Assembly (NCBI GenBank): GCA_015661205.1
Contig: JACVXV010000001.1
Location: 1-46,292, forward strand
DNA length: 46,292 nt
From: Candidatus Brocadiaceae bacterium
Lineage (GTDB): Bacteria > Planctomycetota > Brocadiia > Brocadiales > Brocadiaceae
Reading direction: 5' to 3'
The translations under genes were made by a program, and so were the position numbers. This document shows positions 10,406-35,724 of this stretch, piece after piece. The notes under the pieces are model-generated. The model ran no database searches. It was not told the DNA's origin and saw nothing but the letters and a program-made list of their open reading frames with translations. The first letter of the stretch is position 1. Each line of letters opens with the position of its first letter.

Positions 10406-12157
10406 TCAAAAATGACTGGATTTCCAAATAAAAACAATAATTCCGGCAAGTATAAAGTTGAAGTCGGCAATAGTCTCCAGCATCAAGGCTTCAGACACAA
10501 TGCGCTTCTGAAACAGGTATTGGTATCCGAACGCATAAGCAACGCAGGGGAGCAGGTAGTATCCCAAAGAGGTTGTCCACCCCAATAATGGGCTTATGGC
10601 CAACAGAACCGCGGTTAACGCCGTAATAATGGTAAGAATTATCTTGGTTCGCTCCTTGCCGAGGGCTATCGGTATCGTTTCTTTCCCTAAGATACGGTCT
10701 CCCTGAATGTCCCGTATGTCAAGCACCACCGCCCTGACAAACGCCAGGCTGAAGGTCACACCAAATGCAACAACAAGCGCAGGCGTTAAAATCTTTGCCG
10801 TTCCAAGAAAGGGAATCAGCGCCGTGCTGACGGACCATGCAATACCGTAAAAAATCTCTTTTGAACCGGGTATTTGTTCAAGGCTTCTATACCGTATAAT
10901 ACGCGACACACTCTTCGGTATTATTTCGAGTCGATAGAAAATACCGAACAGGCTGGCGAGGAATATGCAGAGAAAGATAGATCTGCACAGGAGGTATCCT
11001 ATAACGAATGACGTCACCGCGCCAGCAATGCCCAGGCCGACAAAGAGGGTTTGCTTCCTTTCATAAAATTTCGCCTTTAAGGGTTCGTTGATTGCCACAG
11101 CTTCTTTATTGGCGAAGTGGTTTAAGACCTGCATGGAGAAAATGAATAGCGCTGCGATTAAACAAAAGCTGATTCGGGGCTGAATCCCGATCAACGTGGC
11201 GCTTGCGTAACTTAAACTGGCCGCGCCCAGCCCGGCATAAATACAACTCCTGATAAAAAAACTTGCAACGCCCTTTATACCAAACAAGATTTTTCCATAT
11301 CGGCTGACTTTGTACGCGTGCACCTTCTCTACAACCCTTTTAATCATCCAGTTCGGGGTAGAGGCGCCGGCGGTTACGCCGACCGTGTCGAAATCTTTAA
11401 GCCTGGTAAGGTCCAACTCGGTATCCGTTTCCACGTGGAAGGTTGGCGTCCCCTGCGCTTCACATATCTTTACCAGCCGGGTGGTGTTGGCGCTTCCTCT
11501 CCCGCCCACAACAATCATGGCATCCACCGACTTACTGAGACTGACAATTTCATCCTGGCGTTTGTACGTGGAGCTGCAAATAGTCTCAAATGATTCACAT
11601 TGGGCATAACGCTTTTTAAGCCGTTCTATTGCCTCCTTAAACATGTGTCTGTCTTGGGTGGTTTGCGCCACAATGCAAACCTTGTCCATAGGCGGAAGTT
11701 GCTCTATTTCATCCAACTCCTGCACCACGTGGCCTTTGCCTTCTGCATACCCCAGCAGACCAACAACTTCCGCGTGACCCTTATCACCGACGATGACCGT
11801 TGAAAACCCCTGAGCGGCATATTTTTTGATGATAGACTGCACCCTCATAACATGCGGGCACGTGGCGTCACAAACCTTTGCCCCCGTCTCTTCTATTTCC
11901 TTCCTGCGGGCAGGGGTAATGCCGTGCGCCCGTATAACCACCGTACTCTTAGAAAGCTCCGTTTGCCCCTTAACTACCTGAATTCCCCTTTTTTCCAGGT
12001 ATTCAAGCACTTGTGGGTTATGGATAAGGGGACCATCCGTATAAACCCTGCCGTCATCATTTTTTTCATTTGCAGCATCCAGGAGGATGTCCATTGCGCG
12101 CCGGACACCCATGCAAAACCCCGCTGTTTTAGCAACCTTTACCCTCAACTTCACCAC
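10406..12157 (-). CDS. ispH: Fusion of IspH (HMBPP reductase) with a UbiA-like prenyltransferase
   Basis: 583 residues. Residues 1-280 are IspH, the [4Fe-4S] enzyme that makes IPP and DMAPP in the last step of the MEP pathway. The three cluster cysteines are C15 (TAGFCMGVRRA), C100 (DATCPHV) and C194 (ICSSTYKRQDE). Active-site H46, H78 and the GHAE pair H128/E130 are present. Residues about 295-583 form a UbiA-type membrane domain with about eight hydrophobic segments. Its second Asp motif is intact (DIRDIQGDRILGKETIPIAL), but the first, normally NDxxDxxxD, reads NHFANKEAVAIN. It may therefore be inactive or use another substrate. The start is uncertain: GTG 12157, GTG 12154 or TTG 12148, with GGGGTGG just upstream. 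First gene of an operon with the DUF502 gene. Confidence 0.92.
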   Translation of the reverse strand: MVKLRVKVAKTAGFCMGVRRAMDILLDAANEKNDDGRVYTDGPLIHNPQVLEYLEKRGIQVVKGQTELSKSTVVIRAHGITPARRKEIEETGAKVCDATCPHVMRVQSIIKKYAAQGFSTVIVGDKGHAEVVGLLGYAEGKGHVVQELDEIEQLPPMDKVCIVAQTTQDRHMFKEAIERLKKRYAQCESFETICSSTYKRQDEIVSLSKSVDAMIVVGGRGSANTTRLVKICEAQGTPTFHVETDTELDLTRLKDFDTVGVTAGASTPNWMIKRVVEKVHAYKVSRYGKILFGIKGVASFFIRSCIYAGLGAASLSYASATLIGIQPRISFCLIAALFIFSMQVLNHFANKEAVAINEPLKAKFYERKQTLFVGLGIAGAVTSFVIGYLLCRSIFLCIFLASLFGIFYRLEIIPKSVSRIIRYRSLEQIPGSKEIFYGIAWSVSTALIPFLGTAKILTPALVVAFGVTFSLAFVRAVVLDIRDIQGDRILGKETIPIALGKERTKIILTIITALTAVLLAISPLLGWTTSLGYYLLPCVAYAFGYQYLFQKRIVSEALMLETIADFNFILAGIIVFIWKSSHF

Positions 12158-18650: not shown

Positions 18651-18680
18651 GTGAGAATAATTATGAAGGAGAATATGAAA

Positions 18681-20069
18681 ATGCTCCGATTTAGTAAACG
18701 CCGAAACACCCTGGAACCTGAAGAATACATCTTTCAACTGAACGATTCTCCTGAACCAAACCTCTTCAGGGATGTCTTTCCGTACGATAAAATCCCCAAG
18801 ATTCCGTTTAACTACCGTCTGAATCCGATGAACATGCCCGATGAAATATGGATTACGGACACGACGTTTCGGGATGGGCAGCAGTCCCGCCCGCCCTATA
18901 CCGTTAAGCAGATTGTTGACCTCTTTGACCTCATCCACAAGCTCGGCGGCCCAAAAGGCCTTATCCGCCAGTGTGAGTTTTTTCTGTATAGTGAAAAGGA
19001 TAAGGAGGCGGTCAGAAAGTGCCTGGATCGTGGCTATAAATATCCGGAGGTCACGGGCTGGATCAGGGCGGTAAAAAGCGATTTCAAGCTGGTCAAGGAG
19101 ATGGGTCTCAAAGAAACGGGTATTTTATGTTCCGCATCGGACTATCACATCTACTTAAAGCTAAACAAGACCCGGAAACAGGCAATGGAAATGTACCTCG
19201 ATATTGTGCGCTCGGCGCTGGAAGTAGGCATCATACCCCGATGCCACTTTGAGGATATTACCCGTGCGGACTTCTACGGTTTTGTGGTACCCTTTGCCCA
19301 GGAGTTGATGAAATTATCGAGGGAAAGCAACATCCCCGTGAAGATTCGCGCCTGCGATACCATGGGGATGGGTGTTAGTTATCCGGGCGCTGCCTTACCG
19401 CGCAGCGTGCCCGGCATTGTCTACGGACTGAACCACTTTGCCGGCGTGCCGTCGGGATATTTGGAATGGCACGGCCATAACGATTTTTATCTGGCGGTGA
19501 GCAACGCTACCTCTGCGTGGCTGTACGGTTGCAGCGCCATCAACGGCACACTGTTAGGCTTGGGAGAACGCACGGGCAACACACCGGTAGAGGCGCTCAT
19601 CATGGAATATCTGGCCCTGCGGGGAGACGATGAACTGGTGGATACTACCGTGATTACCGAAATTGCCGATTATTACCGAAAGGAAATCGGATACCAGATA
19701 CCGCCCACACAGCCGCTAGTTGGTTCAGAATTCAATATTACACGGGCGGGCATCCATTCCGACGGTTTGTTGAAGAACGAAGAGATATACAACATATTCG
19801 ACACGAAAAAGCTTTTAAACAGGCCTATTGGCGTTTCGGTAACGGACAAGTCGGGCGTCGCCGGTATCGCACAATGGCTTAGCATCTTTTTTGAATTAAA
19901 GGGAAATGATCAAGTCCCCAAGAACCACGAGGGCGTCATTAAGATAAAAGAATGGGTTGATAAACAGTATAACGAGGGGCGCATTATCTCTATCTCTGAT
20001 GATGAGATGGTGGAACAGGCGCGCCTCCATCTTCGCGATTTCATTAAGTCGGACAAACTGAAAATGTGA
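18681..20069 (+). CDS. Re-citrate synthase-like enzyme of the HMGL/homocitrate synthase family
   Basis: 462 residues. Start at ATG 18681 because AAGGAG lies nine bases upstream; GTG 18651, ATG 18663 and ATG 18675 are also in frame. TIM-barrel of the isopropylmalate/homocitrate synthase family: DTTFRDGQQS, GGPKGLIRQCEFFLYSEKDK, CHFEDITRADFYGFV and ACDTMGMG, the metal-site LEWHGHNDFYLAV and NGTLLGLGERTGNTPVEAL. The roughly 60-residue N-terminal lead (LFRDVFPYDKIPKIPFNYR) and overall pattern match, from memory, Re-citrate synthase of Clostridium kluyveri more than LeuA or NifV. Re-citrate synthase condenses acetyl-CoA and oxaloacetate. Its stop overlaps the sucC-like start by four bases, so the two are one operon. 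Homocitrate synthase is the alternative. Confidence 0.82.
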   Translation: MLRFSKRRNTLEPEEYIFQLNDSPEPNLFRDVFPYDKIPKIPFNYRLNPMNMPDEIWITDTTFRDGQQSRPPYTVKQIVDLFDLIHKLGGPKGLIRQCEFFLYSEKDKEAVRKCLDRGYKYPEVTGWIRAVKSDFKLVKEMGLKETGILCSASDYHIYLKLNKTRKQAMEMYLDIVRSALEVGIIPRCHFEDITRADFYGFVVPFAQELMKLSRESNIPVKIRACDTMGMGVSYPGAALPRSVPGIVYGLNHFAGVPSGYLEWHGHNDFYLAVSNATSAWLYGCSAINGTLLGLGERTGNTPVEALIMEYLALRGDDELVDTTVITEIADYYRKEIGYQIPPTQPLVGSEFNITRAGIHSDGLLKNEEIYNIFDTKKLLNRPIGVSVTDKSGVAGIAQWLSIFFELKGNDQVPKNHEGVIKIKEWVDKQYNEGRIISISDDEMVEQARLHLRDFIKSDKLKM

Positions 20070-21241
20070 AGCTCTATGAATTCCAGGCAAAAAACATCCT
20101 TCGGGGATATGGTATCCGTGTGCCTCAGGGCAGGGCCATATCCCGGAAGGACGCCGCCGCAAAGGCGTACGCGGAAATCGGCGCCAGCCGTTGCGTGGTA
20201 AAAGCGCAGATTTTTGCCGGGGGGCGGGGAAAGAGCGGCGGTATTCTCTTTGCCGATTCTCCGGTGGAAGCGGCGACCCGCACCGCGGGCATGCTTGGCG
20301 CCCGCATCGTAACGCCGCAGACGACTCCCCAAGGCGCCGTTATCCAATACGTCCTCCTTGAAGAAGCCATTTCAATTACAAAAGAGCTGTATCTTGCCAT
20401 AGTGATTGACCGTTCCCTTCAAACACCGATGGTGGTTGCTTGCGGGGAAGGCGGGGTGGAAATCGAAGAAGTTGCCGCAAAACACCCCGAAAAAATAATA
20501 AAAGAACCTATAGATGTTTTATTTGGCATACACCCCTTTCAAGTTCGCCGCCTTGCCGCTCAATTAAAGTTAGCGGGCGTGTCCTTTGTTAAAATGAATA
20601 GTTTTATCGTAAACCTTTTTTCTGCCTTTATTCAAAACGATTGTTCCTTGCTGGAAATCAATCCCCTTGTGATCACGGCTGACGGCGAACTGTGCGCACT
20701 CGACGTTAAGATGGATATCGACGACAATGCCTTATACCGCCACCCCGAATTTGAACCGTTTGCTGCCTGCCAGGACGCCACCCCTGCCGAAGCGTTGGCT
20801 CGAAAACATAAGCTGAGTTATATAGGACTGGATGGAAATATCGGGTGTCTTGTCAACGGAGCCGGGCTGGCTATGGCCACGATGGACATTATAAAACTGC
20901 ACGGTGGGGCGCCCGCCAACTTTTTAGACGTCGGCGGCGACGCCTCATTGGAGCAGGTTACACAGGCATTCAAAATTATCCTGTCCGACCCGAAGGTAAA
21001 GGCCGTCTTAATCAACATCTTCGGGGGCATTATGAAGTGCGACACCATTGCCTCCGGCATTATTGAAGCTACTAAAGGCGGTGGCGTAAAGACACCTCTG
21101 ATCGTAAGGCTTGAAGGCACAAACGCGGACATGGCGAGAAAGACATTGGAACGTGCGGGATCAGGTATTTTTTGTGTAAAAGACATGAAAGAGGCTGCAC
21201 GTCTGGCCGTGTCAAAAGCTATAGAAAGCAATCAAAGTTAG
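20066..21241 (+). CDS. sucC: Succinate-CoA ligase beta subunit (SucC-like)
   Basis: 391 residues, the standard length. GTG start overlapping the upstream stop (GTGA). ATP-grasp part: MKLYEFQAKNILRGYGI, VVKAQIFAGGRGKSGGI, ACGEGGVEIEEVA, LEINPLVIT and DVKMDIDDNA. C-terminal ligase part: IGCLVNGAGLAMATMDIIK, ANFLDVGGDAS and INIFGGIMKCD. Binds ADP/ATP and forms acyl-CoA with a SucD alpha subunit, but no sucD is adjacent. Linkage to a citrate-synthase-like gene leaves open succinyl-CoA ligase, malate-CoA ligase or the large subunit of a citryl-CoA synthetase; sequence alone favours succinate. The stop codon lies in the first bases of a family A repeat. Confidence 0.9.
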   Translation: MKLYEFQAKNILRGYGIRVPQGRAISRKDAAAKAYAEIGASRCVVKAQIFAGGRGKSGGILFADSPVEAATRTAGMLGARIVTPQTTPQGAVIQYVLLEEAISITKELYLAIVIDRSLQTPMVVACGEGGVEIEEVAAKHPEKIIKEPIDVLFGIHPFQVRRLAAQLKLAGVSFVKMNSFIVNLFSAFIQNDCSLLEINPLVITADGELCALDVKMDIDDNALYRHPEFEPFAACQDATPAEALARKHKLSYIGLDGNIGCLVNGAGLAMATMDIIKLHGGAPANFLDVGGDASLEQVTQAFKIILSDPKVKAVLINIFGGIMKCDTIASGIIEATKGGGVKTPLIVRLEGTNADMARKTLERAGSGIFCVKDMKEAARLAVSKAIESNQS

Positions 21242-24084: not shown

Positions 24085-24210
24085 ATGAAAGAACTATACG
24101 CGCACTCTGCTAATTTACAGGGCAAGAGCTATAGACTGGTTAATAATCTGGAATGTCAGGATGGTGTGGCGGTAAATCATAAAATCGCTGGAGGAAATTC
24201 ATCTCAATGA
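24085..24210 (+). CDS. 41-residue reading frame resembling a Cas3 N-terminus
   Basis: Starts at ATG 24085 with a GAGAGGGAATG region upstream and ends in TGA 24210, overlapping the cas3 start as ATGA. The product begins MKELYAHSANLQGKSYRLV, then NNLE. This matches how many Cas3 HD domains open (YAHSxN followed by G..H.L..HL). The intact cas3 that follows has its own, different N-terminus. So this is either a leftover of another cas3 cut just after the first 22 residues, or a small coupled gene that sets cas3 translation. After NNLE the sequence no longer resembles Cas3. Confidence 0.5.
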   Translation: MKELYAHSANLQGKSYRLVNNLECQDGVAVNHKIAGGNSSQ

Positions 24211-26690
24211 CACGGAATTCTAAAGTTTGCTTTGCTGCCCATTATCGGACATGTGATGGAACTGCACAAAGCCTGCAGGAACACCTTGAGGGTTGTTCGA
24301 CTTTGGCAAAAGCCTTTGCTGGAAAGATTGGGTTGTCGTCGTTTGGCGAGTTGATAGGACTGCTCCACGATTTTGGCAAATACACAGATGTTTTTCAGGC
24401 ATACTTGCTGTCGGCTGTAGGCAATCTAAACCCTGATGACGATGAGTATGTCGATGCAAAAGGGATGAAAGGAAAGATTGACCATTCATCGGCTGGCGCT
24501 CAATACGTGTGGGAGTTTCTCCCAAAGAAAGATCATCTACGGCGTATAGCCGGGCAGATTATATCCCTCTGTATAGCGTCCCATCACTCTGGTTTAATGG
24601 ATTGCCTTTCACCAGACGGTATTGACGTATTTAGTAGACGTATGGCAAAACCAAAGGACAAAACGCATCTTGAAGAGGCTGGAATAAAAGTTGATGCGTC
24701 TATCCAATGCCACGCTAATGAATTACTCGCGTCTACCACCATTGAGAATGAACTGCGCCGTCGGCTGGAATCGCTTTGGCGTGATAAGCCATCATCCGAG
24801 ATATGTGCGTTTAGGCTCGGCTTGCTGGTTCGGTTCGTCTTTAGCGCGCTCATTGATGCAGACCGGCTAAACAGCGCGGATTTTGAGAATGTTGCTGCAG
24901 CACGCGAACGTTACAACGGATGCTATCTGGAATGGAGTGTCCTTGTTGTGAAATTGGAGGCGCACCTCGCCGGTTTTAAGGCAAAAAACCAGGTGGATAA
25001 GATACGTTCTGAAATTTCTTTATCGTGTCTTAACTTTGCATCCCGTGAAAAAGGTATTTTCCAGCTTACCGTGCCGACCGGTGGAGGAAAAACCCTGGCA
25101 AGCCTCCGATTTGCTTTGCACCATGCAAAACATCACAAAATGGACCGCATTATTTATGTCGTGCCTTATACAACAATTATAGATCAAAACGCAAAAGTCG
25201 TCCGATCCATATTTGAGAATACTGAACACCAACCGGTAGCGAGCGGCAAGCAGATCGTTTTGGAGCATCATTCGAATCTTACACCGGAAAGAGACACATG
25301 GCAAAGCAAGCTTCTATCGGAAAACTGGGATGCGCCCATTGTCTACACGACCGTCGTGCAGTTTCTGGAAACACTTTTTGCTGCCGGTACTCGTGGGGCG
25401 AGGCGGATGCATCATCTTGCCAACACCGTAATAATCTTTGATGAGATTCAGTCTATTCCGATAAGGACAGTACATCTTTTCAACAACACAATCAATTTTC
25501 TTGTTAAACAGTGCGAATCCACGGTTGTATTCTGTACGGCTACACAGCCGCTTCTGAATGAGGTTGATGTACGGAAGGGTGCAGTGGAACTGTCAGTAAA
25601 CCATCAAATAATGCCGGACATTAGTAAATTATTCAAGGATCTTCGGCGTGTCGAGGTGGACGACAAACGCAAAACCGGAGGCTGGTCTGAGGATGACGTG
25701 GCGAACGAGGCACAGCAGGAATTGGAGAACACGGGCAGCGTGCTAATCATTGTCAACACGAAGGCACAGGCAAGGGAGATTTATAAGCGTTGCAAGCAGA
25801 TAACGGGCGAAATATTCCATTTAAGCACAAGCATGTGTCCTGCTCATCGTATGGATATACTCGACAAGGTCAAAGAATGCCTTAACCCGGGTAATTCCAA
25901 ACCTGTGATCTGTGTTAGCACACAATTAATCGAGGCGGGTGTTGACGTTGACTTTGGTTCGGTAATACGGTATCTAGCCGGACTCGATTCAATTGCACAG
26001 GCCGCGGGGCGATGCAACCGTAACGGCCTGCGCCAAACCGGCCGGGTAGTTGTTGTAAATCCGGCGAACGAGAACCTCGATAAATTGCCTGATATTAGGA
26101 CTGCAAAGGAGAAGGCGGAGCGCGTACTTGACGAATATCGGAATAGTCCTCTTTCGTTTGATAATGACCGAATTAGTCCTACGGCCATGACCCTTTACTA
26201 TCGTTACCACTTTTTCGACAGGAAACATGAAATGGACTATCCGGTTTCTTCTAAAGAGGTGGGCAGGGATGACACCCTCTTGTCTCTGCTATCAACGAAC
26301 AATCTATCAGTTAATGCCTACACAAGAACAAACAACACGGCACCACCAATAGATATCCGGCAATCGTTTAAGACTGCAGCGGAGGCGTTTAAAGTAATAG
26401 AAGCGCCAACTGAAGGTGTAATTGTGCCGTACGGAGAGGAAGGTAAGCGAATCATTACCGGGCTATTTTCAACTGCAGGCATGTTTGAAAAAAAATATAA
26501 ACTTCTTAAGGCGGCTCAGCGTTATTCGGTAAATATGTTTCCTCATGAAATCGTAAAGCTGAGGCAGACCGGCAGCCTCCGTGAGGTTTCGGAAGGGAGC
26601 GGCATTCTTTGTCTCGACCCACAACACTACAGCAACGAATTTGGAGCAAGTATTGATCGGGTAGCATTGATGGAAACTCTTATTTTATAA
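24207..26690 (+). CDS. cas3: Cas3 HD nuclease-helicase, type I-C
   Basis: 827 residues. Nicks and degrades DNA marked by Cascade. HD nuclease part at about 1-240: GLLHDFGKYTDVFQAYL (H54, D55), DHSSAGAQY, ASHHSGLMDCL. Helicase part: Walker A LTVPTGGGKTLASLRFALHH, box II IIFDEIQSIP, motif III FCTATQP, motif V STQLIEAGVDVDF and motif VI AQAAGRCNRNG. All metal and ATP residues I can check are present, so it is probably active. GGAGG upstream supports ATG 24207. First complete gene of the operon; cas5c follows after 12 bases with its own AAGGAGGT. Confidence 0.96.
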   Translation: MTRNSKVCFAAHYRTCDGTAQSLQEHLEGCSTLAKAFAGKIGLSSFGELIGLLHDFGKYTDVFQAYLLSAVGNLNPDDDEYVDAKGMKGKIDHSSAGAQYVWEFLPKKDHLRRIAGQIISLCIASHHSGLMDCLSPDGIDVFSRRMAKPKDKTHLEEAGIKVDASIQCHANELLASTTIENELRRRLESLWRDKPSSEICAFRLGLLVRFVFSALIDADRLNSADFENVAAARERYNGCYLEWSVLVVKLEAHLAGFKAKNQVDKIRSEISLSCLNFASREKGIFQLTVPTGGGKTLASLRFALHHAKHHKMDRIIYVVPYTTIIDQNAKVVRSIFENTEHQPVASGKQIVLEHHSNLTPERDTWQSKLLSENWDAPIVYTTVVQFLETLFAAGTRGARRMHHLANTVIIFDEIQSIPIRTVHLFNNTINFLVKQCESTVVFCTATQPLLNEVDVRKGAVELSVNHQIMPDISKLFKDLRRVEVDDKRKTGGWSEDDVANEAQQELENTGSVLIIVNTKAQAREIYKRCKQITGEIFHLSTSMCPAHRMDILDKVKECLNPGNSKPVICVSTQLIEAGVDVDFGSVIRYLAGLDSIAQAAGRCNRNGLRQTGRVVVVNPANENLDKLPDIRTAKEKAERVLDEYRNSPLSFDNDRISPTAMTLYYRYHFFDRKHEMDYPVSSKEVGRDDTLLSLLSTNNLSVNAYTRTNNTAPPIDIRQSFKTAAEAFKVIEAPTEGVIVPYGEEGKRIITGLFSTAGMFEKKYKLLKAAQRYSVNMFPHEIVKLRQTGSLREVSEGSGILCLDPQHYSNEFGASIDRVALMETLIL

Positions 26691-26702
26691 AGGAGGTGTT
26701 TG

Positions 26703-27404
26703 ATGAAAAATAGCGTTGAATTCAAGGTGTTTGGGCAATATGCGCTCTTCACCGACCCGCTGACCAAGATCGGCGGGGAAAAATGCTCCTACCACATCCC
26801 AACATACGAAGCGCTCAAGGGAGTAGCCAAGTCTGTATATTGGAAGCCGACCTTTATCTGGATTATCGACAAGGTGCGGATAATGCGGCGTATCCGAACG
26901 CAGTCGAAGAGCGCCAAACCTCTTGATTATGGGGGAGGGAACTCCCTTGCAATCTATACCTATCTTGCAGATGTGGAGTATCAGGTTCAGGCTCATTTTG
27001 AATGGAATCCATATCGTGAGGATTTGGCTGACGACCGTAATAATGTGAAACATCTCTCAGTCGCTGAACGGATGATTAAAAAAGGCGGACGGCAAGATAT
27101 CTTTCTTGGTGCGAGAGAATGCCAGGGGTATATCGAACCTTGCTCATTTGGGGAAGATAATGGGGAATATGATGGATGCGGTGAATTGGCATACAGCCTC
27201 ATGTTTCATGGGTTCGATTACCCTGACGAGATTGGAGAAAATAAGTTGTACAGCCGCTTCTGGCGGCCTGTCATGGAGGATGGAATCATCACCTTTCAGC
27301 GTCCGGAAGAATGCACTATTCGTAAGTTCGTACGCGAAATGATTCCAAAACCGCCAAGTTCTGTTGGGTTGAAAGAGGAGGGCTTGAACCATGAACTGGA
27401 TTGA
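26703..27404 (+). CDS. cas5c: Cas5c, pre-crRNA-processing endonuclease of type I-C
   Basis: 233 residues. In type I-C, Cas5 replaces Cas6: it cuts the repeat RNA and stays bound to the crRNA 5' handle. Start ATG 26703 with AAGGAGGT just upstream (TTG 26700 is less likely). With this start the residues matching the known Cas5d catalytic set fall at Tyr46 (VAKSVYW), Lys116 and His117 (DRNNVKHLSV), the same numbers reported for Bacillus halodurans Cas5d. Family features: KVFGQYALFTDP at the start, GGEKCSYHIPTYEALKG, FLGARECQGYIEPC. The 3' end overlaps cas8c by 14 bases. Confidence 0.96.
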   Translation: MKNSVEFKVFGQYALFTDPLTKIGGEKCSYHIPTYEALKGVAKSVYWKPTFIWIIDKVRIMRRIRTQSKSAKPLDYGGGNSLAIYTYLADVEYQVQAHFEWNPYREDLADDRNNVKHLSVAERMIKKGGRQDIFLGARECQGYIEPCSFGEDNGEYDGCGELAYSLMFHGFDYPDEIGENKLYSRFWRPVMEDGIITFQRPEECTIRKFVREMIPKPPSSVGLKEEGLNHELD

Positions 27405-29289
27405 AAAGCTTTACAGGACGTATGAAAATTGCAAGGCGCATATTGGTGATAGTAATGATGAAGTTCCATTGTTGCCGGTATGCCACACGACTCAGAAGGC
27501 ACATATAACCGTAGTCATTGATGGAAAGGGCAATTTTTGCAGAGCCTACGTTGTCCCAAAGTCGGAATCCCGGACAATAATCCCCGCAACGGAAGAGTCG
27601 GCAGGAAGGACAAGCGGTACAACTCCACACCCTCTTTGTGACAAATTGCAATATGTTGCATCTGACTACCTCAAATTTGGAGGTGATAAGGAATCCTGCT
27701 ATGAAATGTATTTTGCTCTATTGGAGAAGTGGTTTAATGCCGATAAGAATCATCCAAAATTAAAGGCTATTTACGAGTATGTAAAAAAGGGACAACTCAT
27801 TAGTGATCTTGTCAAAGCAGGTATTCTTCATACGACCATCAGCAACGACAAGACCGTGCTGATAAACCAATGGGAGGACGAGGATAACGTCCCGGAAATA
27901 TTTAAGTTGCTTTCAGGAGGATTCGACAATAAAGGCAAAAGTAAGCCGTGTCAGGCTGATTCGTTTGTTCGGTGGTCAGTAGAGATACCCGGCGATCCTC
28001 AAGCGGACGTTTGGTCAGATAAATCACTATGGGAGTCATGGCAAAGCTATTATGGAAATCGCAATCCGGCAAAAGGCTTATGCTATGTGACCGGTACGGA
28101 AAATACCCTTGCCGATCAACACCCCGCTAAGCTTCGAAATGATGGCGATAAGGCAAAGCTGATTTCTTCCAATGATAACTCAGGATTTACTTTCAGAGGA
28201 CGGTTCACAACATCTGATGATGCATGTGGCGTAGGTTTTGAAGTGACACAAAAGGCGCACAGCGCGCTTCGCTGGCTCATCGCGCGGCAAGGCCGAAGGG
28301 ATGGTGATCAAGCAATTGTAGCTTGGGCCGTTTCCGGTATAAAAGTGCCTGACCTTTTAGCGGACACTTATTCTCTCGTGTTTGGCGGTGACCAGGAATC
28401 TGCTTCAAAAGGCACAGGATACACCGCGCAGGAAGTCGGGGTTGCCTTTTCAAAACTCATAGCAGGGTACTCCGCAAAACTTGGTTCAACTGAAGACATT
28501 GTGGTTATGGGGCTTGATTCTGCCACACCGGGACGAATGGCCATTACTTTTTACCGGGAACTGACCGGTTCGGAACTGCTTAAGAGGGTGCGGACGTGGC
28601 ACGAAGGGTGTTCCTGGCTCCAGAGATTCGGCAAGGACAAGGTCTTCGTTGGAGCGCCTGCGCCACGCGACATTGCTGAAACAGCCTACGGCAGACGCCT
28701 TGATGAAAAGCTTCGGAAGGCAACCATTGAACGTCTGCTTCCCTGTATCGTTGATGGGGAGCCGATTCAGCGTGATATTGTAGAATCCTGCGTCAGGCGT
28801 GCAAGCAGCAGGAATGGAATTGAACCATGGGAATGGGAAAAAGCGCTTGGCATAGCCTGCGCACTTTTTAGAAACTTAAACGAAAAGGAGGGCTACGGTA
28901 TGGCATTAGACGAAAGTCGTAAAACGCGGGATTATCTATATGGCAGGTTGTTGGCGTTGGCAGACAGTTTAGAACAATGGGCTTTAAATAAGGCGGGAGA
29001 AAATAGGCAAACAAATGCTGCGAGGTTAATGCAACGGTTTGCCGACCACCCTTTCAGCACTTGGCGGACTATAGAGCTTTCACTTGCGCCTTACAAGGCC
29101 AGATTGGGAGGACAATCTCAGAAAAGGCAAGCATTGATTGATAAAGTACACAGCATGTTTGACCCGCCCGATGATTACACCAGCGATAAGAAATTGAGTG
29201 GTGAATTTTTATTGGGCTATCATTGTCAGAGAGAAAATTTAAAACCCAAAAAAGACGATACAGCAGATATTGATGCTGATGAAGAATAA
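27391..29289 (+). CDS. cas8c: Cas8c (Csd1), large subunit of type I-C Cascade
   Basis: 632 residues. The large subunit recognises the PAM and helps load Cas3. Family markers: MNWIEKLYRTYENC at the start, LLPVCHTTQKAHITVVIDG, then VRWSVEIPGDPQADVWSD, GLCYVTGTENTLADQHPAKL and RNDGDKAKLISSNDNSGFTF, and SALRWLIARQGRRDGDQAIV. The C-terminal 129 residues are mostly helical and are also the product of the internal start described as cas11c. ATG with GAGGAGG upstream, overlapping cas5c. Looks full length. Confidence 0.96.
   Translation: MNWIEKLYRTYENCKAHIGDSNDEVPLLPVCHTTQKAHITVVIDGKGNFCRAYVVPKSESRTIIPATEESAGRTSGTTPHPLCDKLQYVASDYLKFGGDKESCYEMYFALLEKWFNADKNHPKLKAIYEYVKKGQLISDLVKAGILHTTISNDKTVLINQWEDEDNVPEIFKLLSGGFDNKGKSKPCQADSFVRWSVEIPGDPQADVWSDKSLWESWQSYYGNRNPAKGLCYVTGTENTLADQHPAKLRNDGDKAKLISSNDNSGFTFRGRFTTSDDACGVGFEVTQKAHSALRWLIARQGRRDGDQAIVAWAVSGIKVPDLLADTYSLVFGGDQESASKGTGYTAQEVGVAFSKLIAGYSAKLGSTEDIVVMGLDSATPGRMAITFYRELTGSELLKRVRTWHEGCSWLQRFGKDKVFVGAPAPRDIAETAYGRRLDEKLRKATIERLLPCIVDGEPIQRDIVESCVRRASSRNGIEPWEWEKALGIACALFRNLNEKEGYGMALDESRKTRDYLYGRLLALADSLEQWALNKAGENRQTNAARLMQRFADHPFSTWRTIELSLAPYKARLGGQSQKRQALIDKVHSMFDPPDDYTSDKKLSGEFLLGYHCQRENLKPKKDDTADIDADEE
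28900..29289 (+). CDS. cas11c: Cas11c, small Cascade subunit from an internal start in cas8c
   Basis: 129 residues in the cas8c frame (from residue 504). The internal ATG at 28900 is preceded by a perfect AAGGAGG (28885-28891) with eight bases of spacing, better than many true starts in the window. In studied type I-C systems the small subunit is made exactly this way, from an internal ribosome site in cas8c, and lines the belly of Cascade. The product begins MALDESRKTRDYLYGRLLAL and is helical, ending in an acidic tail (DDTADIDADEE). The sequence evidence is the SD plus frame; expression is inference from the family. Confidence 0.88.
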   Translation: MALDESRKTRDYLYGRLLALADSLEQWALNKAGENRQTNAARLMQRFADHPFSTWRTIELSLAPYKARLGGQSQKRQALIDKVHSMFDPPDDYTSDKKLSGEFLLGYHCQRENLKPKKDDTADIDADEE

Positions 29290-29322
29290 ATTTAAAACAT
29301 ACAAAATAAGGAGGATATTGTA

Positions 29323-30234
29323 ATGGAAACGCTGAAAAACAAGATTGATTTTGCAGTGGTCTTCAGGGTAAAGAATGCAAATCCAAATGGAGATCCGCTG
29401 AATGGAAATCGCCCGCGTGTAACCTACGACGGGCTTGGTGAGATGACGGATGTTTGTATCAAGCGTAAGATTCGGAATCGGTTGATGGAAACCTTGCCTA
29501 AATCAAAAGTGAAGATTGATAAAGATGAAAAGGAGATATGCCCTGTTTTTGTTCAATCTGATGACAATAAGTTTGATGACCATCCCAGCCTGAGGTCTCG
29601 TGCAGATGAAGTGCTGTCTAATGTAAAGATTGAAAAAGACATAATTGAAATCGCATGTAAAACATGGTTCGATGTTCGGGCATTCGGTCAACTCTTTGCC
29701 TTTAAAGGCAAAGGCTCGAAAAAAACTAAAACAAAGGAGGCAAATGAAACCGGTGATGACAAGGGCGTTTCCATAGGAATACGTGGCCCCGTGAGCATCC
29801 ACTCGGCATTCAGCATTAACCCTGTTGATGTAACAAGCATTCAAATTACGAAAAGTGTTAGCGGAGAAGGTGATGGCAAAAAGAAGGCATCTGACACCAT
29901 GGGAATGAAGCACCGTGTTGACCGTGGTATTTATGTCTTTTATGGAAGCATGAACTCACAGCTTGCAGTAAAAACAGGGTTCAGTGACAGCGATGCAGAG
30001 GTCATTAAGTCTGTCCTGCCGCGTCTTTTTGAGAATGACGAATCATCCGCACGGCCAGCGGGGAGTATGGAGGTTCTCAAAGTGGTTTGGTGGCATCATA
30101 ACTGTCCGAGCGGTCAATGCTCATCGGCCAAGGTGCACAGAAGCCTGAAAGTCACAGACACTGACGACCTGGACAAGTTAATTTCTTTTGATAATGTGAA
30201 TGGGCTAGTTCCTAAAGTAATTGATGGCGTATGA
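29323..30234 (+). CDS. cas7c: Cas7c (Csd2), Cascade backbone
   Basis: 303 residues, the repeated backbone subunit that coats the crRNA spacer. AAGGAGG lies nine bases before ATG 29323. Family markers: IDFAVVFRVKNANPNGDPLN, GNRPRVTYDGLGEMTDVCIK, WFDVRAFGQLFAF, then GVSIGIRGPVSIHSAFSINP, ITKSVSGEG, DTMGMKHRVDRGIYVFYGSM and, near the end, VLKVVWWHHNCPSGQCSSAK. Appears complete. Thirty-four bases separate it from cas8c. The usual next gene, cas4, is represented here only by a short fragment before the RhuM-like gene. Confidence 0.96.
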   Translation: METLKNKIDFAVVFRVKNANPNGDPLNGNRPRVTYDGLGEMTDVCIKRKIRNRLMETLPKSKVKIDKDEKEICPVFVQSDDNKFDDHPSLRSRADEVLSNVKIEKDIIEIACKTWFDVRAFGQLFAFKGKGSKKTKTKEANETGDDKGVSIGIRGPVSIHSAFSINPVDVTSIQITKSVSGEGDGKKKASDTMGMKHRVDRGIYVFYGSMNSQLAVKTGFSDSDAEVIKSVLPRLFENDESSARPAGSMEVLKVVWWHHNCPSGQCSSAKVHRSLKVTDTDDLDKLISFDNVNGLVPKVIDGV

Positions 30235-30245
30235 CTTACATGTGA

Positions 30246-30308
30246 CAATCAATCATAGACCCCATCATGGTTTCTGCTCTTGAACATTACAGCTACTGCC
30301 CGCGGCAG
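30246..30308 (+). pseudogene. cas4: 5' fragment of a second cas4
   Basis: Twelve bases after cas7c, a frame without a start reads IIDPIMVSALEHYSYCPRQ and then breaks into unrelated sequence. The intact cas4 at 31424 reads VVDPIMVSALEHYSYCPRQC at its start. The two DNA copies agree in protein but differ at several third codon positions (TCT/TCC, GCT/GCC, GAA/GAG, CGG/CGC). This is therefore a diverged duplicate, not a fresh copy. It marks the original place of cas4 right after cas7c. Confidence 0.85.
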
Positions 30309-30393
30309 TCGATAAGGAGAAACTCCCCTCTGGAATTGGAATTAAAGAGTGGCCGGAAGAAAAGGTATTCTGAGAAAGGAACGTGACAGCACT

Positions 30394-31434
30394 ATGAAAA
30401 AAAAGGGGGAACAAGTTCCGGTAAATAGCGACCTGATTCTGTATCAGACAGAGGATGGACAGACGAAAATTGAAGTCTGCCTGCAGGATGAAACGGTATG
30501 GCTAACCCTCAACCAGATGGCTGAGTTGTTTCAGCGGGACAAGTCGGTAATCTCCAAGCATATAAGGAACATTTTCGAGGAAGGAGAACTGCTGCGTGAG
30601 GCAGTTGTTGCAAATTATGCAACAACTGCGGCAGATGACAAAATCTACCAGGTGGATTACTACAACCTCGATGTAATTATTTCCGTAGGCTATCGGGTAA
30701 AGTCCCAGCGTGGCACACAGTTCCGTATATGGGCCACCCAGCGGCTGCGGGAATATATTGTCAAGGGCTTCACCATGGATGACGACCGTTTGAAGCAGGG
30801 CGGAGGTGGCAAGTATTTTGATGAACTCCTTGCCCGTATTCGCGACATCCGCTCCTCCGAAAAGGTCTTCTGGCGTAAGGTGCTGGATATTTACGCCACC
30901 AGCATAGACTATGACCCCAATACGGATATTTCTCAGCAGTTCTTTGCTGCCGTTCAAAACAAGATGCACTGGGCTGCCCATGGGCATACGGCTGCCGAAA
31001 TCATACACGGCAGAGCGGATGCTGCAACGCCGAACATGGGCATGACTGCCTGGTCAGGAGATAAACCCCGAAAAGCTGACGCTGAAGTTGCCAAAAACTA
31101 CCTGAATGAAAAAGAGCTGGATATGTTAAACCGGATTGTCACTATGTATCTTGACTTTGCGGATATTCAGGCGCTGAGCCGCAAGCCCATGTATATGTGC
31201 GACTGGCTTGCAAAGCTGGACGACTTTCTCAAACTCAGCGGGCGGGATATTCTTACACATACCGGGAAAATAAGCCATGACAAGGCATTCGAGAAAGCCC
31301 ACGCCGAATATGCGAAATACCGGCAGGAACGACTGAATGAGCCTTCTACGGTGGAGCTGCAGTTCCTTGAGTCGGTCGAAAAAATGAAGCAGCTTGAAAA
31401 AACGGAGAGAGGAGGGCGTCGAGATGGAAGGTGA
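30394..31434 (+). CDS. RhuM family protein
   Basis: 346 residues from ATG 30394 (GTG 30349 would extend into the cas4 fragment). RhuM proteins (PF13310) are named after a Salmonella pathogenicity-island gene and are common in defence and mobile regions; their function is not established. Pattern: LILYQTEDGQTKIEVCLQDE, then VWLTLNQMAELFQRDKSVIS and KHIRNIFEEGEL (a winged-helix-like N-terminus), YQVDYYNLDVIISVGYRVKS, GTQFRIWATQRLREYIVKGF. The C-terminal helical part ends in KMKQLEKTERGGRRDGR and overlaps the cas4 start by 11 bases, so it is now part of the cas operon. It interrupts the cas7c-cas4 junction. Confidence 0.93.
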   Translation: MKKKGEQVPVNSDLILYQTEDGQTKIEVCLQDETVWLTLNQMAELFQRDKSVISKHIRNIFEEGELLREAVVANYATTAADDKIYQVDYYNLDVIISVGYRVKSQRGTQFRIWATQRLREYIVKGFTMDDDRLKQGGGGKYFDELLARIRDIRSSEKVFWRKVLDIYATSIDYDPNTDISQQFFAAVQNKMHWAAHGHTAAEIIHGRADAATPNMGMTAWSGDKPRKADAEVAKNYLNEKELDMLNRIVTMYLDFADIQALSRKPMYMCDWLAKLDDFLKLSGRDILTHTGKISHDKAFEKAHAEYAKYRQERLNEPSTVELQFLESVEKMKQLEKTERGGRRDGR

Positions 31435-32047
31435 TTCCGTGGTTGACCCTATCATGGTTTCCGCCCTTGAGCATTACAGCTACTGCCCGCGCCAGTGCGC
31501 CCTGATCCATATAGAGCAGACTTTTGATGAAAACTTGGATACCTTACGCGGCAGGATGGTGCATGAAAATGTGGATGAAGAATCTTCTCACGCCCTGGAA
31601 GGTGTTCGCTATGAAAGGGCGCTTCCTATCTGGTCAAAACGGTTAAATCTTGTCGGGAAGGCAGACATGGTGGAGTTTCATGGAAATATCCCGTACCCTG
31701 TGGAATATAAATCCGGAAGACACAGGGCAGGTCATCATGAAAGCTTGCAACTCTGTGCACAGGCGATCTGCCTTGAAGAGATGCTTGGTGTGAAGGTAGA
31801 GAAGGGTGCCATTTTCTGGCATGCGTCCAGAGAGAGGAAAGAGGTGGTTTTTACGGAGGCCATGCGGGGTATGGTAGAAGAAGCGGCTGCTGCCGTGCGC
31901 AAGATGGTGGATGAAAGATTTGTGCCGCCGCCGGTGAACGATAAGCGGTGTAAAGATTGCTCTTTAAAGGAATCGTGCTTGCCCGCAGCGATTCAGGATA
32001 AGGGCAAAACCAGGCGCATGGCTGAGAAGCTGTTTGTGGTGGAATAG
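31424..32047 (+). CDS. cas4: Cas4, Fe-S PD-(D/E)XK nuclease for spacer acquisition
   Basis: 207 residues. Cas4 trims prespacers and checks the PAM together with Cas1-Cas2. Start ATG 31424 with GGAGG eight bases before. Fe-S cysteines: one in YCPRQCALIH and three near the C-terminus in RCKDCSLKESCLP. Nuclease core: VGKADMVEF (Asp), YPVEYKSGRH (Glu, Lys), then SLQLCAQAICLEEM. Appears functional. In a standard type I-C operon cas1 would follow at once; here a HEPN/MNT pair and a four-helix gene lie between. Confidence 0.95.
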   Translation: MEGDSVVDPIMVSALEHYSYCPRQCALIHIEQTFDENLDTLRGRMVHENVDEESSHALEGVRYERALPIWSKRLNLVGKADMVEFHGNIPYPVEYKSGRHRAGHHESLQLCAQAICLEEMLGVKVEKGAIFWHASRERKEVVFTEAMRGMVEEAAAAVRKMVDERFVPPPVNDKRCKDCSLKESCLPAAIQDKGKTRRMAEKLFVVE

Positions 32048-32054
32048 CAATGTA

Positions 32055-32063
32055 TGGTATAAT
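32055..32063 (+). promoter_or_regulatory. Extended -10 promoter for the HEPN/MNT pair
   Basis: TGGTATAAT, a perfect extended -10, starts eight bases after the cas4 stop. The -35 region (TTGTGG near 32034) is weak, as is usual with an extended -10. Transcription would begin near 32070, just before the SD GGAGG at 32075. The pair can thus be expressed apart from the cas operon. Confidence 0.55.
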
Positions 32064-32087
32064 TAACTAAGGGTGGAGGACTACAAA

Positions 32088-32480
32088 ATGACAAAAGATG
32101 ATATTATACAACACTGGGTTGATTCATCGGAGGTAGATTTCAAGGCAATGGAGTCACTCTTTGCCAATGGACACTATGTTTGGTCATTGTTTACCGGACA
32201 TCTGGTGCTGGAAAAATTGTTGAAGGCGTGCTATGTTAAATACATTGACAATAAATTCCCACATATTCATCATCTATTGAAGCTTGCAGAGGGCGCAAAC
32301 CTTGAACTTTCAGAGGAACAGAAAAATTTCCTATTGGAAGTTACAGCATTTAACATTGATGCAAGATACTCTGATCACAAGAGCCGATTTTATAAAAAGG
32401 CAACTCGTGAATTTAGCACTTATTACGTCAAAACCATTAAGGAGTTTAGGCAATGGCTCATCAAAAAGATAAACAGCTAA
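32088..32480 (+). CDS. HEPN domain protein (toxin of a HEPN/MNT pair)
   Basis: 130 residues from ATG 32088, eight bases after GGAGG (the GTG at 32073 would swallow the SD). All-helical HEPN fold: WVDSSEVDFKAMESLFANGH, SLFTGHLVLEKLLKACYVKY, HHLLKLAEGANLELSEEQKN and the conserved NIDARYSDHKSRFYKKATRE. HEPN proteins of this kind are RNases or are regulated by AMP transfer from their MNT partner; the Arg and His of ARYSDH are the likely active pair. It overlaps the MNT gene by 28 bases. Position between cas4 and cas1 suggests insertion of a self-contained toxin-antitoxin module. Confidence 0.88.
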   Translation: MTKDDIIQHWVDSSEVDFKAMESLFANGHYVWSLFTGHLVLEKLLKACYVKYIDNKFPHIHHLLKLAEGANLELSEEQKNFLLEVTAFNIDARYSDHKSRFYKKATREFSTYYVKTIKEFRQWLIKKINS

Positions 32481-32776
32481 TGTATCAAATTGTCAAAAAA
32501 TACCTTGATAACCTCAAGAAAAACAATATTCCTGTCTGGCGGTTGTATCTCTATGGGTCTTATGCGAAAAATACGTATCATGCAGACAGTGACATAGACC
32601 TTGCCGTGTTCTGGGATAAGGATGACATAGACGGCTTTGATGAGGACGTACAGTTGTTGAAGCTGACAAGGGACGTAGATTTGAGAATAGAGCCTCACTC
32701 ATTTGCCAGGACCGATTTTGACGAAACAGACCCCTATATCAAAGAAATAATCGAAACGGGTGAGAGGATAATTTAA
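32453..32776 (+). CDS. MNT nucleotidyltransferase (antitoxin of the HEPN/MNT pair)
   Basis: 107 residues with the minimal nucleotidyltransferase motif: LYLYGSYAKNTYHADSDIDL (GS followed by DxD) and the third acid in DVDLRIEPHSF. In characterised pairs the MNT protein adds AMP to the HEPN partner and switches it off. AAGGAG eight bases before ATG 32453 lies in the HEPN gene. The gene ends at the edge of a family A repeat, which may mark the insertion boundary. Confidence 0.9.
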   Translation: MAHQKDKQLMYQIVKKYLDNLKKNNIPVWRLYLYGSYAKNTYHADSDIDLAVFWDKDDIDGFDEDVQLLKLTRDVDLRIEPHSFARTDFDETDPYIKEIIETGERII

Positions 32777-32965
32777 CGTATAGGAATTCCAACCGGTAGC
32801 GCACCCGTCTCGGTTGCGCGGATGAAACCCAATGAATAACACATAACAAGAAACGAAGAATGAAGAATGAAAAAGGAAAAGAAGAAAACCCCTGATAACA
32901 CTTAAACATTTTCCATTTCTTGTTTTATATTATTTATTAAAAAAGCCGTCGCCTAAGGCCTAATT
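32776..32965. repeat. Family A variant with a second inverted A end
   Basis: ACGTATAGGAATTCCAACCG, then GCGCACCCGTCTCGGTTGCG, then CGGATGAAAC, the inverse of the variant at 1826. A TAAGGCCTAATTAAA A-type end in the other direction lies at 32951-32966. The bases between are A-rich (AATGAAGAATGAAAAAGG). No gene. Confidence 0.7.
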
Positions 32966-32988
32966 AAAAAAACAGGAGGTAACATACT

Positions 32989-33555
32989 ATGGCTGATCAA
33001 AAAGAACCCCCTCAGCTTATCCCGCCGCACGGCGGATACCGGGAACTACAGTCTTATCAAATGGCGGAGATTATCTATGACGCCACCATAGTATTTTGCA
33101 ACCGCTTCATTGACCGCCGCTCACGCACCCACGACCAGATGGTGCAGGCCGCCCGCAGCGGCAAGCAAAACATCGCCGAGGGCAGCATGGCCTCCGGTAC
33201 ATCCAAAAAAACCGAGCTAAAGCTCGTTGGTGTGGCGCGGGCAAGCCTTGAAGAACTGCTCCTCGATTTCCAGGATTATCTGCGCCAGAAGGGGCTGCCG
33301 CTTTGGACAAAGGATCACCCGAAAGCCAATGAAGTCAGAAAGCTTTGTTACCAAAAAAATAAGTCTTATTTGACCTATAAGACTTATATTGAGCAAGGCT
33401 CGCCCGAGGTCGCCGCAAACACCATGGTCTGCCTGATCCACCAGACAAACTACCTGCTTGACCAACAATTACGGGCATTGGGAAAGGCATTTCTGAAAGA
33501 AGGCGGATTTACCGAGAGACTCTATCGGATGCGCAATGAAGAAAAGAGGCGATGA
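32989..33555 (+). CDS. Four-helix-bundle protein with suffix domain (S23/Avd-like)
   Basis: 188 residues; GGAGG precedes ATG 32989. The core resembles proteins encoded by 23S rRNA intervening sequences and the diversity-retroelement accessory protein Avd: YQMAEIIYDATIVFCNRFID, MVQAARSGKQNIAEGS, KTELKLVGVARASLEELLLD and FQDYLRQKG. The C-terminal part (NTMVCLIHQTNYLLDQQL) matches the suffix form of this family. Role unknown; Avd binds nucleic acid and reverse transcriptase, but no reverse transcriptase is here. It lies between the HEPN/MNT pair and cas1, its stop only 53 bases before cas1, so it is co-transcribed with cas1. Confidence 0.85.
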   Translation: MADQKEPPQLIPPHGGYRELQSYQMAEIIYDATIVFCNRFIDRRSRTHDQMVQAARSGKQNIAEGSMASGTSKKTELKLVGVARASLEELLLDFQDYLRQKGLPLWTKDHPKANEVRKLCYQKNKSYLTYKTYIEQGSPEVAANTMVCLIHQTNYLLDQQLRALGKAFLKEGGFTERLYRMRNEEKRR

Positions 33556-33608
33556 AACAGCAGCCTCCGTGCTTCCGGCGATTAATAGTTTCAGGAGGAG
33601 AAAGAAAC

Positions 33609-34640
33609 ATGAAACAACTGTTGAAAACGCTTTACGTAATGACGCAGGGCGCTTATCTTACGCTTGACCACGAAACGGTCAAGGTTGAAGTGTCGGGCAA
33701 GACCCAGCTTCAGGCGCCCCTTCATCATTTGGGGGCGCTCTTTACCTTTGGCAACGTGATGATGAGCCCGTTTCTTATGCACCACTGCACGGAAAACGGC
33801 AAGGCCATCGTGTTTCTTGACGCAAACGGGAGGTTTCTTGCCAGGGTCGTCGGCAAAACAACGGGCAACGTCCTGCTCCGGCAGGCACAATTTGAGGCCG
33901 TAAGGGATGCGCCGAAGTCCGCGTCCATCGCCAAAAGCATCGTTGCCGCAAAATTGCAAAACTCACGGCAAATCCTCTTGCGCGGCGCAAGGGAGGCGAA
34001 CGACGGCGGGATAGAGGCTGGATTGAGGCAGGCGGCTACCGTCCTTTCCGACGCGATCCACAACCTGAAGAATAGCGGCAACGTTGACGAAACCAGGGGG
34101 TTTGAGGGTTTGTCCGCAAGCGCCTACTTTCAGGTGTTTGATACGATGATCAAGGAAAACCGGGATACATTCCTCATGAAAGGCAGGACGAGGCGTCCGC
34201 CGAGAGACCCTATGAACGCCCTCTTATCGTTCCTTTACACCCTGCTCCTGAACGACTGTGTGTCGGCATTAGAGGGCGTGGGGCTTGATCCACAGATGGG
34301 GTTCCTGCACGCCCTGAGGCCGGGACGTCCAGCGCTCGGCCTTGACCTCATGGAGGAATTGCGTTCGGTGCTGGCGGACAGGCTTGCCCTTACCCTCATC
34401 AATCTCCGGCAGATTAACGGTAAGGATTTTGAAGACAGGACAGGGGGCGCGGTATATTTGAATGACGCGGGAAGGAAGACCGTTGTGGTTGCGTACCAGA
34501 AGCGGAAGCAGGAGGAGTTCACCCACCCGCTCCTGGAGGAAAAAGTCCCCTTCGGCCTGATTCCGCACGTGCAGGCCAGGCTCTTAGCGAGGCATTTACG
34601 GGGGGACATGGAGGCGTATATACCGGTCTTGTATGCCTGA
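33609..34640 (+). CDS. cas1c: Cas1 integrase, type I-C
   Basis: 343 residues from ATG 33609 (AGGAGGAGAAAG upstream; an earlier in-frame ATG at 33552 overlaps the previous gene and lacks an SD). Cas1 with Cas2 inserts new spacers. Family markers: MKQLLKTLYVMTQGAYLTLD, FGNVMMSPFLMHHCTENG, RPPRDPMNALLSFLYTLLLN (metal-site Glu region just after), GLDPQMGFLHALRPGRPALG with catalytic His, and LDLMEELRSVLADR with catalytic Glu. Looks intact. In standard operons cas2 overlaps or follows directly, but here 1.27 kb of inserted material intervenes. Confidence 0.95.
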   Translation: MKQLLKTLYVMTQGAYLTLDHETVKVEVSGKTQLQAPLHHLGALFTFGNVMMSPFLMHHCTENGKAIVFLDANGRFLARVVGKTTGNVLLRQAQFEAVRDAPKSASIAKSIVAAKLQNSRQILLRGAREANDGGIEAGLRQAATVLSDAIHNLKNSGNVDETRGFEGLSASAYFQVFDTMIKENRDTFLMKGRTRRPPRDPMNALLSFLYTLLLNDCVSALEGVGLDPQMGFLHALRPGRPALGLDLMEELRSVLADRLALTLINLRQINGKDFEDRTGGAVYLNDAGRKTVVVAYQKRKQEEFTHPLLEEKVPFGLIPHVQARLLARHLRGDMEAYIPVLYA

Positions 34641-34891
34641 AGCGTCGCCGCCGCGACCAAAATCATGTAAACCGTAAAGGGAGAGAAATCTGCCGGGTGC
34701 ATTTTTACCTTCTTGAAAATGGGTGTTTTGTCCCGTAGTGGCAGGCGGAAATAGTACACCGCTTTGCCGGTGGGATTACACGGCAGGATTTTTAAGGCGT
34801 AGGGGCGGGGTTTCCCCGCCCTTAGCGGGACAAAGGGTTTACCAGAATTTTTGAATGCATCCAAACCTGATTGCAATGGGAGGGAATTATA
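34641..34891. other. Gap between cas1 and the DUF1640 gene
   Basis: No supported gene. It contains the hairpin GGGGCGGGGTTTCCCCGCCC near 34803-34822. Leftward frames running into cas1 antisense are shadows. Confidence 0.4.
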
Positions 34892-34920
34892 TTGATAGAG
34901 TTTTGTTGAATTGATATAAT
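34892..34920 (+). promoter_or_regulatory. Consensus sigma70 promoter, likely leaderless transcript
   Basis: TTGATA at 34892-34897, exactly 17 bases, then TATAAT at 34915-34920. The ATG of the next gene begins seven bases after the -10, which is where transcription should start. No SD is present, so the mRNA is probably leaderless. Confidence 0.8.
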
Positions 34921-34926
34921 ATTTGC

Positions 34927-35220
34927 ATGCCTATAACTAAAGAATTAGAAAACCTACGAAAGTTTGAATCTGTCGGCTTCACTCATGAGCAATCTGAAGT
35001 ACTTACAGACGTTATTGAACAGTCTCATGTTAACGGACAGCAAAGCCTAAAAGATTTCATCAGTGACAAACTCGAAGAACTCCGCAAAGATGTTCGCAAC
35101 GAAATTACATCTTCAGAACTCCGCATAAGGGCATCCCATACCGACTTACTGGTAAAGATACTTGCCATCGCTGCCGGTTGTACCACTATTGGCATTGCAA
35201 TATCAAGGGTATGGAAATAA
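34927..35220 (+). CDS. DUF1640-like coiled-coil membrane protein
   Basis: 97 residues. N-terminal helix pair LENLRKFESVGFTHEQSEVL and TDVIEQSHVNGQQSL, a charged coiled coil (KDFISDKLEELRKDVRNEIT), and a single C-terminal membrane helix (LLVKILAIAAGCTTIGIAIS). This matches the DUF1640/CCDC90 type; bacterial members have no known function. Expression is from the strong promoter abutting the start codon. It lies between cas1 and cas2, in the same direction, as a guest in the CRISPR locus. The 3' end abuts the dam remnant on the other strand. Confidence 0.78.
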   Translation: MPITKELENLRKFESVGFTHEQSEVLTDVIEQSHVNGQQSLKDFISDKLEELRKDVRNEITSSELRIRASHTDLLVKILAIAAGCTTIGIAISRVWK

Positions 35221-35541: not shown

Positions 35542-35724
35542 TCAATTTTCCGTAAGGCATCCAGTGATATAAACTGCAAGATTCAATCCCACAATCAAGC
35601 CGCCCGTCCACGTAATCGCACATGCAATCTTTACACTTGGCAAGAATTGCCCTTTTCAAACTTGGTCTTTTATGCCTTTCGATTTGTAGTAATCCTCTAA
35701 CTTGTCATTCATTCGTTTAATCTC
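35522..35724 (-). pseudogene. Small zinc-ribbon-like protein remnant with frameshift
   Basis: Reads NDVNHEIKRMNDKLEDYYKS then KGIKDQV; a one-base shift near a TTT run leads to RAILAKCKDCMCDYVDGRLD and CGIESCSLYHWMPYGKLRKK. Six cysteines in CxxCxC and CxxxxC spacing suggest a metal-binding peptide of the kind found near phage genes. Its stop overlaps the start of the dam remnant, so both were one cassette. The 5' end meets a tandem repeat. Non-functional. Confidence 0.6.

Follow-up and report, generated by a model that had tools for sequence, protein, structure and literature searches.

An IspH–UbiA fusion protein with a degenerate first aspartate motif, general in anammox Brocadiales and present in other phyla

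The window analysed here is a stretch of 46,292 nucleotides from a Candidatus Brocadiaceae genome (contig JACVXV010000001.1, positions 1 to 46,292). On its reverse strand, positions 10406..12157 encode a protein of 583 amino acids with a GTG start and no internal stop, in which two domains are joined in a single chain: an N-terminal IspH (LytB) domain (residues 4–283; 11309..12148, minus strand), recognised by Pfam, conserved residues and Foldseek, and a C-terminal UbiA-family membrane domain with nine predicted helices (residues 286–583; 10409..11302, minus strand), recognised by Pfam, the structural model and Foldseek. A preliminary description of this DNA had called the gene an IspH–UbiA fusion, and it is one: Pfam LYTB (residues 6–279; 311 bits, cut-off 24.5) and UbiA PF01040 (residues 313–551; 56 bits, cut-off 34.2) both score above cut-off in the same frame. 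An AlphaFold2 model built from 31 fusion sequences has a mean pLDDT of 87 and a pTM of 0.80, with pLDDT below 50 in the linker (residues 284–288). The next gene downstream, 15 nt away, is also on this strand and encodes a DUF502 membrane protein (PF04367; 9689..10390, minus strand).

The IspH half is complete. It scores 280 bits with TIGR00216 (NCBIfam cut-off 187.85), and the corresponding part of the model matches the solved IspH structure 3dnf with a Foldseek E-value of 4e-21. All three Fe-S cysteines (C15, C100 and C194) are present, as are the other catalytic positions—H46, H78, H128, E130, T166/T167, S222, N224 and S266—and the catalytic positions are invariant across the fusions. IspH is essential wherever the MEP pathway is the sole source of isoprenoids. 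No LytB other than the fusion is found in the window's own genome or in any of nine further fusion genomes checked; the IspH half must therefore work, and HMBPP reductase activity is to be expected of it.

The UbiA half is recognised by its fold. A sequence search of the PDB with this domain gave no significant UbiA match; the fold search did give matches. The model has nine membrane helices in two bundles, as is characteristic of the UbiA superfamily, and it matches AfUbiA in its GPP- or DMAPP-bound forms (4TQ3/4TQ4; Foldseek E-values about 3e-6 to 9e-6, the best being 2.8e-6 with 4tq3), as well as DGGGP synthase (7BPU), ApUbiA and 4OD4. Among NCBIfam models there are weak matches to several prenyltransferase families, none close to its cut-off; no MqnP, UbiA, CtaB or MenA cut-off is reached, and the top match, PRK13591, scores 45 bits against a cut-off of 238.

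The motif columns were fixed by aligning an MqnP-type protein with solved structures. The first motif of the window protein, N346-H-F-A-N350-K-E-A-V354 (11096..11122, minus strand), keeps the asparagine of the canonical NDxxDxxxD (or N-xxx-D-xxx-D) and has lost the three acids. N346 sits close to where a predicted membrane helix (residues 329–349) ends, as its counterpart does in AfUbiA; N68, D72 and D76 of AfUbiA correspond to N346, N350 and V354, and D198 and D202 to D483 and D487. The second motif, D480-I-R-D483-I-Q-G-D487 followed by R-I-L-G491 (10685..10720, minus strand), is intact, with the DxxxD and the subsequent Gly and Thr represented by D483, D487, G491 and T494. Y408 (10934..10936, minus strand) is the equivalent of AfUbiA Y139, the near-universal catalytic tyrosine. 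These alignments bear out the preliminary description, which had set the missing first motif (NHFANKEA) against a second one that is kept; they put N346 at the motif column, and no complete first motif occurs elsewhere in the domain. In AfUbiA, N68, D72, D198 and D202 are the Mg2+ ligands; GPP binding is abolished by N68A and D72A and weakened 45-fold by D198A and 21-fold by D202A. AfUbiA also binds DMAPP and makes use of N68, Y139, D198 and D202 (PMC4106721).

The degeneration of motif 1 is no peculiarity of this protein: in an alignment of 155 fusions motif 1 is non-canonical throughout the fused family. The only near-universal motif positions are the motif 1 asparagine (N346, Asn in 94%), the TM4 tyrosine (Y408, Tyr in 94%) and the last aspartate of motif 2 (D487, Asp in 99%). 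Position 350 is acidic in 55% of the sequences and is Asn in the Brocadiaceae, position 354 (position 8 of motif 1) is Asp in about 7%, and position 483 is acidic in 68%, being often Gln or Asn in Desulfobacterota. The family has conserved features of its own: R475 (kept in 92%), K/R433 (97%), W441, E493 and T494 are each over 90% conserved, and N-D/E-P follows motif 1. The equivalent of AfUbiA K146 and the R22 region are not conserved family-wide. In the raw counts only five of the 155 sequences have neither acid at positions 350 and 483; compensation between these two positions was considered and rejected, the association having vanished after identity clustering (p 0.18 to 1.0 at ≤60% identity).

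Relatives of the fusion occur in 31 of the 33 genomes of the same family, with 74–86% identity and almost always in one frame, and some of these are single-contig genomes. That a sequencing or assembly error joined two genes, which the preliminary description had named as a possible refutation, or that the junction arose by chance, is thus extremely improbable, the same frame being found in dozens of independent genomes, complete ones included. The closest public matches are from Candidatus Brocadia, Jettenia, Loosdrechtia and Kuenenia (75–86%); Scalindua follows at about 61%, and by these matches the window belongs among the anammox bacteria. Identity with the desulfobacterial fusions is about 40%. 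Relatives are carried at 80 loci in the GTDB genome collection. A survey of planctomycetes had been proposed in the preliminary description, and a profile of the UbiA subfamily had matches in 58 of 294 Planctomycetota genomes, about a dozen of them weak matches to other UbiA proteins, and in 114 of 297 Desulfobacterota genomes. The matching frames are nearly always 565–800 residues long, and IspH is present in those that were read. The fusion is also found in metagenome-assembled genomes labelled Nitrospirae, UBP3 and Chitinispirillia. It is thus general in anammox Brocadiales and occurs in other Planctomycetota and in further phyla. One genome (G019) has three fusion copies of two sequence types, on contigs C53, C113 and C123, and is probably a mixed bin.

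No unfused members of this UbiA subfamily were found among the profile matches in the Planctomycetota and Desulfobacterota genomes. Apparent exceptions were rejected: the matches in G172 and G432 sit at contig ends and appear cut, that in G596 is probably cut too, G307 is frameshifted, and L168 and L170 fall in different UbiA groups. Selection on the UbiA half is purifying, though less strong than on the IspH half: dN/dS is 0.04–0.13 in most pairs with an estimable dS and 0.22 in the loosest, against 0.02–0.10 for the IspH half, although dS is saturated in many pairs. The sole pair with unsaturated dS gives 0.13 for the UbiA half and 0.04 for the IspH half.

In a tree of IspH domains the main fused set lies on one side of a single branch (SH-aLRT 91, not decisive); this grouping fits one fusion that was then inherited and at times transferred. 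One unfused IspH (L292, from genome G334) is nested within the fused clade and is likely to reflect secondary loss of the UbiA half. A search among Desulfobacterota IspH genes with long frames but without a UbiA profile match at threshold revealed a motif-less form: in nine of 297 genomes (loci L300–L308) IspH is fused to a UbiA-derived membrane domain, about 261 residues long, from which motif 1, the loop after it, the tyrosine and the KDIPGS loop are deleted, only the stretch from D487 to G491 being retained. Its relationship to the UbiA domain is seen in a profile comparison (probability 91.5% over 250 columns) and in profile scores of 20–35 bits; the C-terminal membrane half of its structural model is largely below pLDDT 50, and this model was not used. 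Of the motif-less proteins, two (L294 and L297) were placed in the IspH tree; they fall among unfused IspH sequences, apart from the main fused clade, and may derive from a second fusion. Two others (L293 and L295) have IspH with a membrane tail of 270 residues that is more divergent still and is not recognised by the UbiA profile; their IspH domains are nested in the fused clade.

The genome was also inspected for separate enzymes, as the preliminary description had suggested. There is no second IspH. An MqnP-type UbiA protein scores 295 bits with TIGR01475, above the cut-off, and a CtaB-like protein, below its NCBIfam cut-off, is encoded adjoining a cytochrome oxidase subunit gene; MqnC is over its cut-off. 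Menaquinone and haem O should therefore not need the fusion. One or more separate UbiA proteins are found both here and in the nine further fusion genomes checked. These enzymes also speak against the special isoprenoid route proposed earlier from the fusion together with a polyprenyl synthase at 17220, and that route is not supported: 5 kb and a change of strand separate the synthase gene from the fusion, the genome has two polyprenyl synthases, and outside Brocadiaceae the two genes lie close together at just two distant loci.

The neighbourhood of the fusion varies. A DUF502 gene is its +1 neighbour at 26 loci and is kept in Brocadiaceae; at desulfobacterial loci dusB often precedes the fusion (33 of 52 distant loci), and the next gene is often a glycosyltransferase family 2 gene on the same strand (28 of 52). 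No partner gene is common to all phyla among the loci compared, and a literature search for an anammox or ladderane link turned up no mention of this protein. Elsewhere in the window are a type I-C CRISPR-Cas locus (24207–37129; Cas3, Cas5, Csd1/Cas8c, Cas7, Cas4 and Cas1, with the array at about 36380–37129), which has a RhuM-family gene (30349–31434), a HEPN protein (32073–32480) and a 23S-IVP-like gene (32989–33555) between the cas genes; an unusual pairing at 18651–21241, where a homocitrate/isopropylmalate synthase-like HMGL protein overlaps a succinate-CoA ligase beta subunit-like protein; and, at 43184–44558, a short ORF with a GmrSD N-terminal domain beside an AAA_21/DUF3696 ATPase, perhaps a disrupted defence locus or one of unusual make-up.

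Of the explanations considered, we prefer, at about even confidence, that the cell's only IspH became tethered to the membrane through an old gene fusion, which probably happened once, tethering being the common role and a ligand-binding pocket probably remaining in most lineages. The IspH half, whose active site is fully conserved, would make IPP and DMAPP by reducing HMBPP on the cytoplasmic side; the C-terminal domain, by its predicted fold and topology, would hold it in the membrane; and tethering would deliver IPP and DMAPP where prenyl diphosphates are used, with separate enzymes presumably carrying out the prenylations for menaquinone and haem O. The earlier proposal that IspH is brought to the membrane thus probably stands, by way of the predicted nine-helix domain. 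We infer that tethering is common to all because some lineages keep the IspH–membrane fusion without the catalytic motifs. Purifying selection on the UbiA half and the lack of unfused subfamily members count in favour of tethering. Conserved polar pocket residues, which exceed the needs of a passive anchor, count against tethering alone. The possible second fusion behind L294 and L297 and the low confidence of the motif-less model in its membrane half also weigh against this explanation. The pocket around N346, Y408, K/R433, R475, D480 and D487 is conserved in Brocadiales and most other lineages, and has probably kept the ability to bind a prenyl or phospho ligand, with a metal site that would be altered since Asn and Val stand where AfUbiA has D72 and D76. 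Judged from the sequences, most lineages, Brocadiaceae included, may thus retain a non-canonical prenyl-diphosphate-binding activity. Where the preliminary description had offered an unusual acceptor or an anchor, membrane anchor and altered ligand are the two readings that stay live.

Alternatively, the UbiA half could be catalysing prenyl transfer to an unusual acceptor, with the IspH half supplying it directly with DMAPP/IPP or with prenyl diphosphates made further along the pathway, which is the Rosetta-stone reading of Rao et al. (PMC4746011). We regard this as possible but doubtful. The intact second motif, the retention of N346 and Y408, the binding of DMAPP by AfUbiA and its use of N68, Y139, D198 and D202 (PMC4106721), the purifying selection on this half and the glycosyltransferase gene that follows the fusion at the 28 distant loci all agree with it; yet the position at which D72A abolishes GPP binding in AfUbiA is Asn in Brocadiaceae, the K146 equivalent and R22 region have drifted across the family, the motifs are absent from some lineages that keep the fusion, and no gene is a constant partner across phyla. 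A narrower proposal, that the UbiA half takes DMAPP/IPP straight from the IspH site and prenylates a membrane acceptor through a single-metal or Lys/Arg-assisted site, we consider improbable; if true, it would make the protein a self-contained enzyme from HMBPP to prenylated lipid, with an acceptor common to anammox and sulfate-reducing bacteria. It is similarly unlikely that the UbiA half is a pseudoenzyme sensor, in which a weakened prenyl diphosphate site would match the activity of IspH, or its association with the membrane, to the supply of isoprenoids: a partly conserved ligand pocket with drifting single acids, fused to the last enzyme of the pathway, would suit such a role, but there is no sign of coupling between the domains, the linker is poorly predicted, and nothing comparable is known to us from bacterial UbiA proteins. 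The graded loss of UbiA motifs under a retained fusion, together with the wider distribution, makes the choice between anchor and enzyme directly testable, and a PF01040 or 'UbiA' annotation on such fusions is no evidence of prenyltransferase activity.

Several known systems resemble parts of this protein. Its IspH half shares fold and active-site residues with stand-alone IspH (3DNF, 3KE8), differing in being joined to a membrane domain. IspH–RPS1 fusions occur in Clostridia and Fusobacteria (PMC4746011); they too are C-terminal extensions of IspH in anaerobes, but the partner is ribosomal protein S1 rather than a membrane domain. AfUbiA (4TQ3/4TQ4) and DGGGP synthase (6M31/7BPU), among the closest solved folds to the model of the UbiA half, have in common with it the Asn, the Tyr and the two motif 2 aspartates; they are stand-alone proteins, whereas the window protein has Asn and Val in place of D72 and D76, followed by N-D/E-P. 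Fungal UbiA-type terpene synthases have NxxxG/AxxxD as motif 1 and QDxxDxxxD as motif 2 (PMC9835599), and are thus similar in combining a weakened motif 1 with a three-aspartate motif 2 (DxxDxxxD). The last motif 1 aspartate and the QD start are absent from the window protein, so this identity was rejected; the fungal proteins also lack IspH. A DPPR-synthase-like reading was also considered, the shared Asn being the only feature compared.

The closest precedent is the set of 47 IspH–UbiA fusions (PT_UbiA_5) described by Rao et al. in 2015, all of them from sulfate reducers and reported to carry two DXXXD motifs, with membrane localisation proposed (PMC4746011). The window protein has the same domain order, with a C-terminal UbiA-like domain and separate UbiA/MenA in the genome; it differs in its hosts—anammox Brocadiales and other phyla—and in a motif 1 without acids. 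Two DXXXD motifs are a descriptive rather than a defining feature, and only the second is found here; the desulfobacterial members that were read have no canonical NDxxDxxxD either. On the sequences read here, both 'all in sulfate reducers' and 'two DXXXD motifs' need correcting. The kind of fusion has been known since 2015; what is new is its presence in anammox bacteria and its wider distribution, the corrected description of the motifs, and their graded decay.
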